Below are positions 25,464 through 30,541 of a DNA stretch of 64,000 nt, one piece after another. The translations under genes and the position numbers were made by a program. The DNA lies in the NCBI GenBank assembly GCA_027489335.1, contig JAIXZX010000013.1:124001-188000 (forward strand), written 5' to 3'. Under the pieces are notes generated by a model that saw only the letters and a program-made list of their open reading frames with translations, was not told the DNA's origin and ran no database searches. This DNA comes from Caulobacteraceae bacterium (GTDB lineage Bacteria; Pseudomonadota; Alphaproteobacteria; Caulobacterales; Caulobacteraceae). Positions within the stretch are counted from its first letter, which is position 1, and every line of letters starts with the position of its first letter.

Positions 25464-26129
25464 ATGACCGAAGCCGTACCCCCACCGCCGCCGCAGCCCG
25501 AAGCGGACATGCAGGAAGCCGCCACCAAGGCGGCGGTCTTCTGCGCGGCCGAGCGGCTGTTCGCCCTGCACGGCTTCCAGAACGTCTCGGTGCGCGACAT
25601 CACCGCCGAGGCCGGCGTGAACCTCGCCTCTGTGAACTACCATTTCGGCTCCAAGGACGGCCTGCTGTTCGAGATCTTCCGCCGGCGCACCGCCGAGCTG
25701 AATCGCGAGCGGGCCCGGATGCTGCACGAGGCCAATGACCGCCATGGCGGCAAGCCGCCGGTCCGCGACATCCTGGAGGCCCTGTTCGCGCCGCCCCTGA
25801 AGTGGGCCGATCCGGCCGGTGACCGGCGCATCTCCGTCCAGTTCATCATCCGCGCCCGCAGCGAGGGCACCGCCCAGATGCGTGACGTGCTGCAGAACGA
25901 TGTCTCGCACCTGCGCCGGTTCGCTGACGCCCTGATCGCGGCCCGGCCGGAGATGGCCCTGGAAGACGTCTACTGGCGGCTGCATTTCTGCCTGGGCATG
26001 GTGCACAACAACCGCTTCGCCGAGTTCGACCGGCTGCACCACCTGTCCGACGGCCTGACCCGCGAGCAGGACGCCGACGGCCTGCTCAGCCGCATGCTGG
26101 ACTTCGCCGAAGCCGGATTTCTGGCGTGA
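25464..26129 (+). CDS. TetR-family transcriptional regulator
   Basis: 221 residues. The TetR DNA-binding domain is at about 18-65 (VRDITAEAGVNLASVNYHFG, then SKDGLLFEIF), followed by an all-helical ligand/dimer region. A Pro-rich N-terminal tail precedes it. The gene overlaps the downstream MOSC gene by four bases (GTGA), so they are co-translated. It follows the VWA gene by 70 bases on the same strand. The ligand is unknown. Confidence 0.88.
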   Translation: MTEAVPPPPPQPEADMQEAATKAAVFCAAERLFALHGFQNVSVRDITAEAGVNLASVNYHFGSKDGLLFEIFRRRTAELNRERARMLHEANDRHGGKPPVRDILEALFAPPLKWADPAGDRRISVQFIIRARSEGTAQMRDVLQNDVSHLRRFADALIAARPEMALEDVYWRLHFCLGMVHNNRFAEFDRLHHLSDGLTREQDADGLLSRMLDFAEAGFLA

Positions 26130-26671
26130 CCGGCGGCCCGCGCGTCACCCATGTGGCGAGCCGGCCAGGACACAGCTTTTCCAAGACCTTGCAGGACGCC
26201 GTCACCCTGATCGCCGGGCTCGGCGTTGAGGGCGACGGCCATGCCGGCCCTACGGTTCAGCACCGCTCGCGGGTCGCCCGGGATCCGACCCAGCCGAACC
26301 TGCGCCAGGTTCATCTGATCGCCGGCGAACTGCATGATGAGCTGAACGCCGCCGGCTTCGAGATTGGCCCAGGCGACCTGGGGGAGAACCTCACCACCCG
26401 GGGGACTGATCTCATCGCGCTGTCGGCTGGGACGAGGCTGCACCTGGGTCAGGGCGCGGTCATAGAGGTCACCGGCCTGCGCAACCCTTGCATCCAGCTC
26501 GACCGCTTCCGACCCGGCCTGATGGCCGCCTGCCTCGGCCGCGACGCCGAGGGCCATCTGGTGCGCAAGGCTGGGATCATGGGCATCGTCCTGACCGGCG
26601 GCGAGGTGAAGCCCGGTGACCTCATCAGGTTTGAGGCGCCGGCCGTATTCAGGGCCCTGGAAAAGGTCTGA
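26126..26671 (+). CDS. MOSC-domain protein
   Basis: 181 residues. MOSC domains are the sulfur-carrier part of molybdenum-cofactor sulfurases and of enzymes such as YiiM. Visible marks are the N-terminal LGVEGDGHAGPTVQHRSRV, LRQVHLIAGELHDEL, PGDLGENLTTRG, and the conserved cysteine in TGLRNPCIQLDRF (Cys122). It starts with GTG overlapping the TetR stop, so the TetR protein may control it. It ends 3 bases before the convergent UdgX gene. Confidence 0.88.
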   Translation: MTGGPRVTHVASRPGHSFSKTLQDAVTLIAGLGVEGDGHAGPTVQHRSRVARDPTQPNLRQVHLIAGELHDELNAAGFEIGPGDLGENLTTRGTDLIALSAGTRLHLGQGAVIEVTGLRNPCIQLDRFRPGLMAACLGRDAEGHLVRKAGIMGIVLTGGEVKPGDLIRFEAPAVFRALEKV

Positions 26672-26674
26672 GCG

Positions 26675-28114
26675 CTATTTAGCCAGGGACCAGGCGAGCT
26701 TCAGGTCCTCGATGAACTGCCCTTCGGCCCGGGCCTTGGCCTCAACGTCCGGAACCCGCAGCAGATAGGACGGGTGCCAAGTCACCACCGCCTGGGCCTG
26801 ATCCTCAAGTTGAATAGCCTGGCCCCGAACCTTGCTGATTGGCGCGGCCTTGCCCAGCACCGCACGGGCCGCCGTCGCGCCCAGGGTCACGATCACCCGC
26901 GGCCGGACCAGCCGCCGCTCGGCGTCCAGCCACCAGCGGCAGGCCTCGATCTCGGGCGCGTCCGGGGTCTTATGGATGCGTCGCTTGCCCCGCAGCTCAT
27001 GCTTGAAGTGCTTCACCGCATTGGTGACGTAGGTCTCCCGCCGGGGCACGCCGGCTGCGGCCAGGGCATGATCAAACACCTGACCTGCAGGCCCGACGAA
27101 CGGGCGGCCGGCCAGGTCCTCCTGATCCCCGGGCTGCTCACCGACGATCATCAGCCGCGACTGCGCCGGGCCCTCTCCGGCCACCCCTTGGGTCGCATCG
27201 CGCCACAGCGGGCAGCGGCGACAGGCGTCGACGCCGGCTGCGACCTCCTCAAGGCTGGCGGGCGCGGCCCCATCGAAGGGGGCGTCGCGGCTGGCCCTCA
27301 GGGCGGCCCGCACGATCCGGCGGGCGGGTTCGGAAGGGGCCGTCTCGACCATCTGGGTGGTCCGGTCTCCTGCGGCGCGGGTCATCTCCGGAATGAGCGC
27401 GGCCTCCGGCAGGTTGCGCCAGTAGCGCTTGGGCATCTCCCGAACCATGGTCGCCGTCCGTAACCGAGCCGGATTGAAGGTCGAGGCGTAATAGGTCCGC
27501 CAATAGGCCTCCAGGTCATCGCCGGCCGGCGCATCCGCCGGATCAGCGCCGGGCGTAAAGCTCAGCACCTGGCGGTCCCAATGGGCGCAGACATCCGGCG
27601 TCAGGATGGAAAAGGCCATGTTGGAGAACCGGCGCACGAAGAAGGGCGCGGTGGCCTCGGTCACCCGGTGGGCCGGCTCGAACCAGGCCACGAAGGCCTC
27701 GCCGACACCGGCGGTCTCCACCTCGCGAAAGCGGACAAAGGCCTTCATCTTGTGGGCGGCCCGGTTCACCTGGCTCTGCATGTCCAGCGCCAGGGCGACG
27801 TCCGGATCACTGGCGATCTCCAGCAGGCGGGGCGTCGTCTCCAGCCGCCAGAGCAGGCGATAGAGCAGGTCAAACCGCGCCGGCGAACGATGCAGGGCGA
27901 CCCGCCCGGCGAGATCGACAAAGGCCCGGCTGACCTTGAATCCCCCCTCCCCGGCCGCCTGGCCCTGAGGCGCCTGCGCCGGAAACAGGCTCGCCTGGCC
28001 GCCATCGACGGTCCAAAGCACCTCGGCCGGCGCCGCACCTTCCCCTCGGAGGGCGCGGGCCGCGGCTCGCCAGCCGTCGAAGTCAGTCTCGGACGCCAGG
28101 CGGACGACGCGCAT
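26675..28114 (-). CDS. udgX: DUF4130-UdgX fusion, uracil-DNA binding protein
   Basis: 479 residues. The N-terminal half (about 1-250) is the DUF4130 domain found with radical SAM DNA-metabolism proteins. The C-terminal half (about 285-479) is a UDG-fold domain: GEQPGDQED (325-333), GRPFVGPAGQ, and KRRIHKTP with His381, and HPSYLLR (447-453). In UdgX the KRRIH-loop histidine bonds covalently to the abasic site after uracil removal (established for mycobacterial UdgX). Cluster-type cysteines are C298, C301 and C392, while the fourth position of related UDGs reads histidine in NAVKHFKHE. It follows the radical SAM gene with a TGATG overlap, so they form one operon. Confidence 0.9.
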   Translation of the reverse strand: MRVVRLASETDFDGWRAAARALRGEGAAPAEVLWTVDGGQASLFPAQAPQGQAAGEGGFKVSRAFVDLAGRVALHRSPARFDLLYRLLWRLETTPRLLEIASDPDVALALDMQSQVNRAAHKMKAFVRFREVETAGVGEAFVAWFEPAHRVTEATAPFFVRRFSNMAFSILTPDVCAHWDRQVLSFTPGADPADAPAGDDLEAYWRTYYASTFNPARLRTATMVREMPKRYWRNLPEAALIPEMTRAAGDRTTQMVETAPSEPARRIVRAALRASRDAPFDGAAPASLEEVAAGVDACRRCPLWRDATQGVAGEGPAQSRLMIVGEQPGDQEDLAGRPFVGPAGQVFDHALAAAGVPRRETYVTNAVKHFKHELRGKRRIHKTPDAPEIEACRWWLDAERRLVRPRVIVTLGATAARAVLGKAAPISKVRGQAIQLEDQAQAVVTWHPSYLLRVPDVEAKARAEGQFIEDLKLAWSLAK

Positions 28115-29349
28115 CAGAACAGGCTCAGCTGCTCGGGCGGCGGGGCGAAGCGGTCGCGCAGATCGATCCGGTCGGTCAGGGCGCCCGGGCTCCAGTCGCT
28201 GGCGGTGACGAAGGGCTTCAGCTTTTCGAGGTTGCGGGCCAGGCGCTTCACATCGGCCAGGGAGAGCCGCGTCAGCTTCCGCGCGGCGATCATCCGGTCG
28301 ACGCTGCGGGTTCCCAGGCCAGGCACCCGCAGCAGCTGCTCGCGCGAGGCGGTGTTCACATCCACCGGAAAGTCTTCCCGATGGCGCAGGGCCCAGGCGA
28401 GCTTGGGGTCGATGGTCAGGTCCAGATCTTCGCCCGGTGCGATGATCTCGGCGGTCTCAAAGCCATAGAACCGCATCAGCCAGTCGGCCTGATAGAGCCG
28501 GTGCTCGCGCATCAGGGGCGGACGTTGGGCGGGCAGGGACTTGGCCACATCCGGGATCGGGCTGAAGGCCGAATAGTAGACCCGGCGCAGGCCATAGTTT
28601 CCGTAGAGCGTGTTCGACCGCGCCAGGATTTCCCCGTCGCGGGCGCCATCCGCGCCGATGATCATCTGGGTCGACTGGCCGGCGGGCGCATATTTCGGCG
28701 GCTTGGTCTTTCGCGCCGGCTCCTTCCCCGCCTCTATACCTAGGCGCACCGCGCCCATGGCCTTGCGGATCACGCCAGCGTCCTTTTCCGGCGCGAAGGT
28801 CGCCAGGCTCTCCTCCCGGGGCAACTCCACATTGATGGAGACCCGATCAGCATAGAGGGCGGCCTGGTTGGTCAGCTCCACCGAGGCTTCCGGGATCAGC
28901 TTCAAATGGATGTAGCCGCGGAAGTCGTGGTCGGCGCGCAGGGCCTTGGCCACCGCGACCATGGCCTCCATCGTATAGTCGCTGTCGCGGATGATGCCGG
29001 AGGAGAGAAACAGCCCCTCGATATAGTTGCGCTTGTAGAAGCCCAGCGTCAGGTCGACCACCTCCTGGACCTTGAACCGCGCCCGGGGCGTGTTGGACGA
29101 AACCCGGTTCACGCAATAGGCGCAGTCATAGATGCAGTAGTTGGTCAGCAGGATCTTCAGCAGACTGACGCACCGGCCGTCCGGCGTGTAGGCGTGGCAG
29201 ATTCCCATGCCCTCGGTGGAGCCAACCCCCTTGCCGCCCCGGGAGTCTCGTTTCCCCGCCCCTGATGAGGCGCAGGAGGCGTCATACTTGGCCGCGTCGG
29301 CGAGGATGGAGAGCTTCTGCTTCAAATCGAGAACGGCCATGCCGGCCAT
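28114..29349 (-). CDS. Putative DNA modification/repair radical SAM protein
   Basis: About 411 residues. A CX3CX2C radical SAM cluster motif is visible as CIYDCAYC (Cys72, 76, 79), followed by SSGIIRDSDYTMEAM and a C-terminal helix-hairpin-helix DNA-binding segment (VNTASREQLLRVPGLG, about 330-350). This is the family named putative DNA modification/repair radical SAM protein, usually paired with DUF4130/UdgX proteins; its reaction is not known. I chose the first ATG after the LexA box; a second in-frame ATG is three codons later. Neither has a ribosome binding site, so leaderless translation is possible. It is probably induced by DNA damage. Confidence 0.88.
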   Translation of the reverse strand: MAGMAVLDLKQKLSILADAAKYDASCASSGAGKRDSRGGKGVGSTEGMGICHAYTPDGRCVSLLKILLTNYCIYDCAYCVNRVSSNTPRARFKVQEVVDLTLGFYKRNYIEGLFLSSGIIRDSDYTMEAMVAVAKALRADHDFRGYIHLKLIPEASVELTNQAALYADRVSINVELPREESLATFAPEKDAGVIRKAMGAVRLGIEAGKEPARKTKPPKYAPAGQSTQMIIGADGARDGEILARSNTLYGNYGLRRVYYSAFSPIPDVAKSLPAQRPPLMREHRLYQADWLMRFYGFETAEIIAPGEDLDLTIDPKLAWALRHREDFPVDVNTASREQLLRVPGLGTRSVDRMIAARKLTRLSLADVKRLARNLEKLKPFVTASDWSPGALTDRIDLRDRFAPPPEQLSLF

Positions 29350-29355
29350 ATTAGA

Positions 29356-29370
29356 GTTCTTGTTATGTTC
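29356..29370 (-). promoter_or_regulatory. LexA (SOS) box upstream of radical SAM-udgX operon
   Basis: The sequence GTTCTTGTTATGTTC is a perfect GTTC-N7-GTTC direct repeat, the LexA box known in alphaproteobacteria. It lies 7 bases upstream of the radical SAM start codon, where LexA would block RNA polymerase. The divergent LuxR gene starts 89 bases on the other side and might also be affected. The match is exact in both half-sites and the spacing. Only the sequence supports it; binding has not been tested. Confidence 0.8.
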
Positions 29371-29458
29371 CGCAAGCGTGGCTGGATGCCTGCTTCGAAA
29401 GGAGTTGCGAGGCGGCGCAGGTTGGGTGCGATAATCTCGGCAAGCGCAGGGAGATCCG

Positions 29459-30541
29459 ATGGAAAGCGATCTGATTGACCGCATCTACGAGTGTTCCGTC
29501 GCGCCGGATCTGTGGCCCTCGGTGCTCGACGATCTGGCGGCGATGACAGACTCCCGGGGCGGCCTGCTGTTCTCCGCCCGCAAGGCGCTCTGCTGGACGG
29601 CGTCGGGGTCGATCCGCGAGGTGTTTGAGGCCTATGTGAACGACGGCTGGTTCCACCGCTGTCCCCGGCGCACCTGCATCATGAGCCAGTCCGATCCCGC
29701 CTTCTTCGTGGAGCAGGACTTCTGGAGCGAAGACCAGATCAAGGTCGACCCTATCTATCGCGACTTCTTCCACCCCCGTGGCCTCGGATGGTCGGCCGGC
29801 ACGGGCCTGCAGGTGCCGACCGGGGACTCCATCGTCTTCAGCATCGAACGGACACTGGATCGGGGTCCGATCGAGCCGGAGCACGTGGCGACCCTGAACA
29901 GTCTGCGCCCGCACCTGGCGCGCAGCGCCCTGGTCAGCGCCCGCCTGGGCCTGCAGCGCGCCCAGGGCGCCACCGAGGCGTTGAGCGGGATGCGGTTGCC
30001 GGCCCTGCTGCTCACCGAAGGCGGCGTGGTCGTCGAGGCCAATGAGTGGATGGCGCCGCTGGCCGGGGAGGTCCGGTTTGGCGCGGGCAACCGGCTGGTG
30101 CTGAGCGACAAGGCCGCCCAGCAGATGCTCGCCGACGCCCTGAAGACCATCGACGCGGCCCCTGGCCTGGGGCGCTGCACCTTCCCCCTGCGCGACGAAC
30201 TGGGCAAGGCGACGATGGTGCTGCACCTGATCCCCATCAAGCGCTCGGCCCATGACATATTCGGCCAGAGCTTCGCGCTCCTGCTGATGACGCCGGTCAG
30301 CAGCGAGCGGACCCCGTCACTGGACCTGATGCGCTCGCTCTTCGACCTGACGCCGGCCGAGGCCCGGGTGGCCCAGGGGATTGGAGCCGGCAAGACGCTG
30401 GAGGACCTGGCGCTGGCTGGCGATGTGTCGATCAACACCGTCCGCAATCAGCTGCGCCGCGTTCTCGAAAAGACCGGCTGCGCCCGGCAGGCCGAGCTCG
30501 CCGCCCTCCTCTCCAGCGTCGCGGTGGGGGCGGGACAATAG
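29459..30541 (+). CDS. LuxR-type transcriptional regulator
   Basis: 360 residues. The C-terminal HTH of the LuxR type is clear at about residues 290-350 (LTPAEARVAQGIGAGKTLED, VSINTVRNQLRRVLEKTG). The N-terminal 280 residues are a sensor region of unknown ligand, with a PAS-like pattern near 175-225 (PALLLTEGGVVVEANEWMA). No receiver phosphorylation site was seen. It is divergent from the LexA-boxed DNA-repair operon. Its targets cannot be read from the sequence. Confidence 0.85.
   Translation: MESDLIDRIYECSVAPDLWPSVLDDLAAMTDSRGGLLFSARKALCWTASGSIREVFEAYVNDGWFHRCPRRTCIMSQSDPAFFVEQDFWSEDQIKVDPIYRDFFHPRGLGWSAGTGLQVPTGDSIVFSIERTLDRGPIEPEHVATLNSLRPHLARSALVSARLGLQRAQGATEALSGMRLPALLLTEGGVVVEANEWMAPLAGEVRFGAGNRLVLSDKAAQQMLADALKTIDAAPGLGRCTFPLRDELGKATMVLHLIPIKRSAHDIFGQSFALLLMTPVSSERTPSLDLMRSLFDLTPAEARVAQGIGAGKTLEDLALAGDVSINTVRNQLRRVLEKTGCARQAELAALLSSVAVGAGQ

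Follow-up and report, generated by a model that had tools for sequence, protein, structure and literature searches.

The 64,000-nucleotide stretch of DNA analysed here (the window; positions 124,001 to 188,000 of contig JAIXZX010000013.1 from a Caulobacteraceae bacterium, assembly GCA_027489335.1) carries on its minus strand a radical S-adenosylmethionine (SAM) gene followed by a gene for a DUF4130–UdgX fusion, and we consider it rather likely, judging from sequence, that the two form a damage-induced, clamp-tethered SOS repair module. The radical SAM gene (28114–29340, minus strand; first read as 28114–29349, giving 411 residues) encodes 408 residues, an assignment based on profile scores and start-codon alignment; the protein scores 551.9 bits against TIGR03916 (rSAM_link_UDG), whose curated cut-off is 343.5 and which we take to be the family also named COG4277. 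The second gene (26675–28114, minus strand) encodes 479 residues, with TIGR03915 (DUF4130) at residues 8–238, scoring 200.5 bits against a cut-off of 112.25, and TIGR03914 (UdgX) at residues 240–473, scoring 327.9 bits against 189.95; Pfam likewise assigns DUF4130 and a uracil-DNA glycosylase (UDG) domain. The two genes overlap in TGATG, with one base common to both, just as an earlier note on this DNA had stated. The next gene, for a MOSC-domain protein (26126–26671, plus strand), is convergent, and the operon therefore consists of two genes; its lower end is at 26675 and not, as in the note, at 28114. In these respects the locus is a typical representative of a known family that is uncharacterised and SOS-controlled.

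A predicted LexA (SOS) operator, an exact match to GTTC-N7-GTTC as the note had reported, lies at 29356–29370 on the minus strand, reading GAACATAACAAGAAC on the gene strand and GTTCTTGTTATGTTC on the plus strand, where it is the sole exact match to GTTCN7GTTC in the window. It is upstream of the radical SAM start, although not at the claimed 7 bases, the gap being 6 bases to the ATG at 29349 and 15 to that at 29340. By chance, 0.79 exact boxes are expected per window, with at least one box in 58 of 100 shuffles, and therefore the box alone proves nothing. The note had proposed looking for the same box before close homologues, and it is present there: 20 of 21 Caulobacterales loci, the window counted, carry a perfect box no more than 50 bp from the matched start, with a spacer of variable length, L027 being the only one with a near match instead. 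A class-wide draw of 28 loci, two of which came from the window's own family, gave a perfect box in 25 (L045, L051 and L056 were without), and among 80 named homologous loci a perfect box immediately precedes the radical SAM gene in 75; of the exceptions, L104 and L121 have one mismatch, L135 has no box nearby, and L142 and L152 have none. Fragments were left out of the first two counts (L042–L044 from the Caulobacterales set and L073 from the class-wide draw), and the genome-drawn and named-contig sets were counted without de-duplication. The flanks of the same 80 loci contain 26 boxes in 698,376 bp, or 0.0045 per 120 bp; the box is not due to chance, because 75 of the 80 loci keep it against this background. 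The apparent LexA/SOS control of the operon is thus strongly supported, as a prediction, by its conservation.

Read along the gene strand, the box has the GTTC orientation in L021, L022, L023, L025, L090, L092, L105 and L149, the GAAC orientation in most others, and occurs once in each orientation in L128, so the asymmetric operator has been turned round in some lineages.

Outside the class, 35 genomes of the phylum have the radical SAM gene, and 20 copies, presumed to be beta- or gammaproteobacterial, were fetched. In the region searched, the Escherichia coli-type box CTGTN8ACAG precedes 15 of these 20 copies and, with one mismatch, two more; G504, G521 and G704 are without it. In 41,919 bp of those copies this pattern occurs 16 times, and two permuted palindromes do not occur at all. 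The genomes of four box-less copies, G442, G224, G431 and G504, give no LexA match over the cut-off: G431 has none, and in the other three the match is partial and starts no earlier than profile position 77, that in G442 scoring 107.8 of 110.95 bits. G704 has a sub-threshold LexA match starting at position 12, and full matches are found in G054 (the genome of L027) and in G521, in which TTAGTAGTAATACTACTAA lies upstream of lexA but is absent in front of the radical SAM gene. In the clostridial copy L159, GAACAAAAGTTC was noted, by eye only, some 150 bp upstream. Damage control of the family looks widespread, and that it has been retained under unrelated LexA operators speaks for damage induction being important to what the family does.

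The genome from which the window comes contains 59 boxes, compared with 28 for the backwards-read pattern. We inspected 22 of the 59, in 20 hand-chosen stretches; a lexA match is preceded at about 45 bp by the box GAACGCCTAGAGAAC (gene strand), and others lie upstream of recA, uvrA, a YifB-like gene and a DNA polymerase III alpha-like gene, while some precede genes without a plain link to repair (e.g. L007 and L017). An open reading frame for a radical SAM protein of the PA0069 family (NF033668; L001, G000:C6:290212-290226) has the identical 15-mer at a distance of 19 bp from its start, so that the genome apparently places two radical SAM genes under SOS control. Another box lies 39 bp before an open reading frame of the SocA antitoxin family (L009, G000:C8:52619-52633), which scores 164.6 of 190 bits. 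The beta clamp is the target of Caulobacter SocAB, and this box may be a further link between the SOS response and the clamp. The same 15-mer has been reported before two induced Caulobacter crescentus genes, ccna_01391 and ccna_02355, in the accessible text of PMC12700426.

The bases around the operator suggest how it might act. On the gene strand the order is CTTGCG, the box, TC, TAATAT, GGCCGGC and the ATG at 29340, so read that CTTGCG (29371–29376, minus strand) would be a putative −35 element and TAATAT (29348–29353, minus strand), 17 bp further on and 7 nt before the ATG, a putative −10 element, with the LexA box occupying the 17-bp spacer between them. At the place of the −10 element, TA is found in all of 15 same-genus loci and TANNNT in 11. 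A start codon equivalent to 29340 is likewise present in 15 of 15 (14 ATG and one GTG), and the ATG at 29349 overlaps the putative −10 element. The homologues thus point away from 29349, from which the gene was taken to start in the earlier note, and to the second ATG, 29340, as probably the true start. In 34 of the 75 named loci the distance from the beginning of the box to the first in-frame start is 17 bp, a frequent arrangement being GAACATATNNNGAAC-N2-ATG; this layout would place a TATA-type −10 element within the box and about 6 nt from the ATG. The mRNA of the operon is probably leaderless.

The radical SAM protein has the CX3CX2C motif at C69, C73 and C76, each fully conserved (1.00) in 172 aligned sequences, and there are six near-invariant cysteines, of which three, C23, C48 and C57, are additional to the radical SAM motif. 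The Pfam Radical_SAM profile scores 29.0, slightly below its cut-off of 29.5, and Pfam HHH_3 marks a helix-hairpin-helix region at residues 329–382 of the 411-residue reading (28204–28365, minus strand). When the radical SAM profile was compared with PDB sequences, only weak matches came up (best E 0.019); these, and the 50 fold matches listed, of 1337, for the predicted model, were of the HydE/BioB/HydG/MiaB type and others, and spore photoproduct lyase (SPL) is absent from both lists. The note's description of an enzyme of unknown chemistry is still right. The gene is patchily distributed, with a match in 22 of 60 near relatives (21 over the cut-off); at the level of the class, 29 of 387 genomes exceed the TIGR03916 cut-off, and at that of the phylum 103 of 397. 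The gene was also seen on 158 plasmid records, 58 of them from Phaeobacter and a few as large as a chromosome, and on 10 records classed as phage, eight of which are faecal contigs, and may move between replicons. In a same-genus copy (L041/L043/L044, G010:C1) the gene is split over three matches with its LexA box intact, as a result either of a broken gene or of a sequencing error.

At its C-terminus the radical SAM protein has QLSLF (residues 404–408; 28117–28131, minus strand), a putative beta-clamp-binding motif to which conservation, shuffled controls and the predicted local distance difference test (pLDDT) of the model all point, and on which the earlier note was silent. In the 172 aligned sequences Q404 is conserved at 0.99, L405 at 0.78, L407 at 0.97 and F408 at 0.74, and between F377 (0.98) and Q404 only P385 (0.95), L394 (0.94) and D390 (0.86) exceed 0.8. 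A loose clamp pattern occurs in all of 174 tails and a strict one in 140, against means of 19.7 and 1.9 for shuffled tails; of 3312 pieces of 20 residues taken from the interior of these proteins, 50 matched loosely and one strictly, and 820 other long open reading frames in the 80 loci gave nine strict matches, seven of which seem to be copies of the radical SAM gene that the filter had failed to remove. These counts left out L041, L051, L056, L072, L155 and L161, the tails of the last five being read separately, and include one G504 gene twice (L162 and L186); seven of 178 loci were left out of the alignment profile. L161 is a distant relative without the extra cysteines, and its motif is found some 21 residues short of the C-terminus. 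The tail sequences are related and not independent, and the counts therefore overstate the number of events; the stronger argument for the motif is the change of the surrounding sequence across phyla. The tail takes the forms QLSLF, QLxLxL and QMALW, at or near the C-terminus, and the motif is also present in Bacteroidota, Clostridia, Caballeronia and Acinetobacter copies. In the model, pLDDT falls below 50 at residues 403–408, as expected for a free tail, and what we found, an accessible QLxLF-type motif conserved in a variable context, is what a clamp client should show. Clamp consensus sequences of the type QL[S/D]LF or QxxLF, and their use at C-termini, are described in the accessible text of PMC12309361 and PMC4549789. 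A possible second, weaker clamp motif, QASLF, is found at residues 40–44 of the DUF4130 part (27983–27997, minus strand), where, in 95 sequences, L43 (0.99) and F44 (0.94) are conserved and the glutamine only at 0.12; the mean predicted pLDDT of this part is 57 for residues 41–50 and 61 for residues 51–60.

The partner that accompanies the radical SAM gene throughout is DUF4130. Among the 397 genomes of the phylum, 103 have TIGR03916, 106 TIGR03915 and 92 TIGR03914 over the cut-off; DUF4130 occurs in 103 of the 103 radical SAM genomes, and only three genomes have it without the radical SAM gene. UdgX is found somewhere in the genome in 76 of the 103, with none over the cut-off in the other 27, and UdgX occurs in 14 genomes in which DUF4130 does not reach its cut-off. 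A stand-alone TIGR03915 gene adjoins the radical SAM gene in the Bacteroides, Spirosoma and Pusillibacter copies, and pairs that lack UdgX (e.g. L197, L202 and L203) retain both a perfect LexA box and the tail motif. Because more than a quarter of the genomes with the pair are without UdgX, and UdgX-free pairs keep both box and tail, we conclude that the constant pair is radical SAM and DUF4130, and that UdgX is an optional add-on. The coupling of radical SAM to UdgX put forward in the note therefore stands for this genome and falls as the defining pair of the family. Between the radical SAM gene and the DUF4130–UdgX frame there are some 0.3–1.4 kb in L083, L089, L096, L098, L107, L127, L136, L137, L142 and L150.

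The UdgX part itself has the signature of its family: GEQPG, which is motif A, at residues 325–329, KRRIH at 377–381 and HPSxLLR, which is motif B, at 447–453. KRRIH (26972–26986, minus strand), the R-loop with His381, aligns with KRRIH of Mycobacterium smegmatis UdgX (MsmUdgX), and C298, C301 and C392, which align with MsmUdgX cysteines, are candidates for three of the four 4Fe–4S ligands. His381 is present in 95 of 95 aligned fusion proteins and GEQPG in 94; the fusions were partly chosen by motif A, which biases the GEQPG count and leaves the histidine count unbiased. The model of the whole DUF4130–UdgX protein has UDG-superfamily folds among the matches listed.

Put together, these features would be accounted for by the following mechanism. 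LexA at 29356–29370 would fill the spacer between −35 and −10 and block transcription; upon DNA damage, RecA-stimulated cleavage of LexA would release the operon, and an mRNA that is probably leaderless, beginning at or near the ATG at 29340, would be translated into both proteins with the stop/start overlap. The radical SAM protein would bind DNA through its C-terminal helix-hairpin-helix region, while its QLSLF tail might dock in the beta clamp (DnaN), holding it at sites of replication or repair, where, together with DUF4130 as its constant partner and perhaps in a complex with it, it would carry out a radical reaction on damaged DNA. UdgX, which in this lineage is fused to DUF4130, would be optional, excising uracil and capturing the abasic site covalently via His381. 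The repair reaction is most likely a direct chemical reversal, or the removal, of damage to a base or sugar encountered at the fork, and we read the chemistry of the module as one that would not require UdgX. The broader proposal is that TIGR03916 is a clamp-tethered radical SAM repair enzyme which, with DUF4130, repairs a class of lesion at the fork; it would be SOS-controlled both in Pseudomonadota classes whose LexA operators are unrelated and, as published predictions have it, in further phyla, and UdgX would be attached in some lineages only. We hold this proposal, taken whole, to have about an even chance of being correct.

Several observations weigh against this interpretation. There is no recognised LexA box before the gene in L142 (Xanthomonas), L152 (Stenotrophomonas) or L188, the last of which (in G521) is by sequence of the same type as the other two and has a full LexA yet no box, nor is there one near the alphaproteobacterial L135; SOS control is therefore not universal. 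(Before the radical SAM start of the Xanthomonadaceae-type L142, L152 and L188 there is an inverted repeat of the GTCTCAT..ATGAGAC kind.) Co-occurrence with DUF4130 was counted per genome, adjacency being seen in the fetched loci only, and a Pfam comparison at E up to 10 gave no recognisable relative of DUF4130 bar itself and one match at E 0.1 from one of three proteins. Clamp motifs are short and a match is no proof of binding, and the HydE, BioB and MiaB fold matches of the model are uninformative on the substrate of the radical SAM protein.

Other explanations have also to be weighed. That the box is a chance match, or belongs to the divergent LuxR-type gene at 29459 and not to the operon, is scarcely credible: the chance expectation given above and the position of the box between the two divergent genes would allow it, but the box is kept before the radical SAM gene in nearly all of the named loci while the LuxR-type gene is found in just one other fetched locus (L031), and on this conservation both versions were rejected. 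If UdgX were instead the core, capturing abasic sites, with radical SAM and DUF4130 releasing or processing the UdgX–DNA cross-link, the fusion and operon seen in many alphaproteobacterial loci and the invariance of His381 would be explained; this UdgX-centred reading is weakened by the 27 of 103 genomes without UdgX, by the retention of box and tail in L197, L202 and L203, and by the genomes with UdgX but no DUF4130, and we think it very unlikely. The tail, for its part, might be conserved for internal packing or for binding DUF4130, given that both partners have a conserved LF segment, but it is predicted to be disordered and its several forms occur in differing sequence contexts across phyla, so that we regard a purpose other than clamp binding as unlikely.

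Two further alternatives concern the chemistry. The radical SAM protein could be an SPL-like enzyme that reverses thymine lesions directly, with DUF4130 as an accessory, as would suit a radical SAM domain joined to a DNA-binding helix-hairpin-helix region under SOS control, and a legend in PMC3765255 does associate DUF4130 with SplB-like radical SAM proteins; against this, HydE/BioB/HydG/MiaB-type proteins and no SPL appear among the listed PDB and fold matches, and the genome has another boxed radical SAM gene, of the PA0069 family. We consider this conceivable, if on the whole improbable. The pair might also modify DNA bases such as thymine for stress mutagenesis rather than repair lesions, a suggestion that draws on one sentence in the same legend, in which DUF4130 is a predicted mutagenesis-related enzyme, and with which SOS control and a clamp tether would also fit; we found no direct evidence of it and give it little weight. 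The repair module proposed here remains the reading that we prefer.

The gene pair is annotated at present as putative DNA modification or repair, with its reaction and place of action unassigned. A conserved clamp-binding tail, if real, would place a radical SAM enzyme at the replisome, and to have DUF4130, not UdgX, as the constant partner redirects the search for a substrate away from uracil. SOS control of the family is not new, being the subject of published reports or predictions in several phyla. It is reported for the COG1573–COG4277 UDG operon of Bacteroidetes in the accessible text of PMC8565304, which cites reports for Verrucomicrobia (2016) and C. crescentus (Paes da Rocha 2008), so that the note's remark that this control is poorly described was too strong; CC2333 is listed among the C. 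crescentus UDG-family genes in the accessible part of PMC1839093, LexA control is predicted for CAC3343–CAC3344 of Clostridium acetobutylicum in that of PMC3828012, and the physiological role of UdgX is called largely unknown in that of PMC10359453. Our literature search, with most subscription journals outside its reach, found no paper joining UdgX with radical SAM, or with SOS and LexA, and none on clamp binding of the TIGR03916 family or on a clamp-binding motif with radical SAM. What is new here is the clamp-type tail and the DUF4130-centred pairing.

The COG1573–COG4277 SOS operon, a putative UDG-based base excision repair system, likewise has two genes under LexA control; the accessible description of it in PMC8565304 is without the clamp motif, the leaderless layout or a constant DUF4130, and the operators differ by phylum. 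In contrast to CAC3343–CAC3344, the clostridial pair that we fetched (Pusillibacter) has a stand-alone DUF4130 without UdgX. MsmUdgX is about 50% identical to the UDG part of the fusion and shares GEQPG, KRRIH and HPSxLLR with it, although the solved protein is a single UDG domain, whereas here DUF4130 precedes the UDG part in one fused protein, whose gene lies after that of a radical SAM protein. Finally, known beta-clamp clients such as PolC, with its C-terminal QLSLF, and the IS1634 transposases (in the accessible text of PMC12309361 and PMC4549789) likewise end in QLxLF, but these are polymerases and transposases, whereas the putative client described here is a radical SAM protein.

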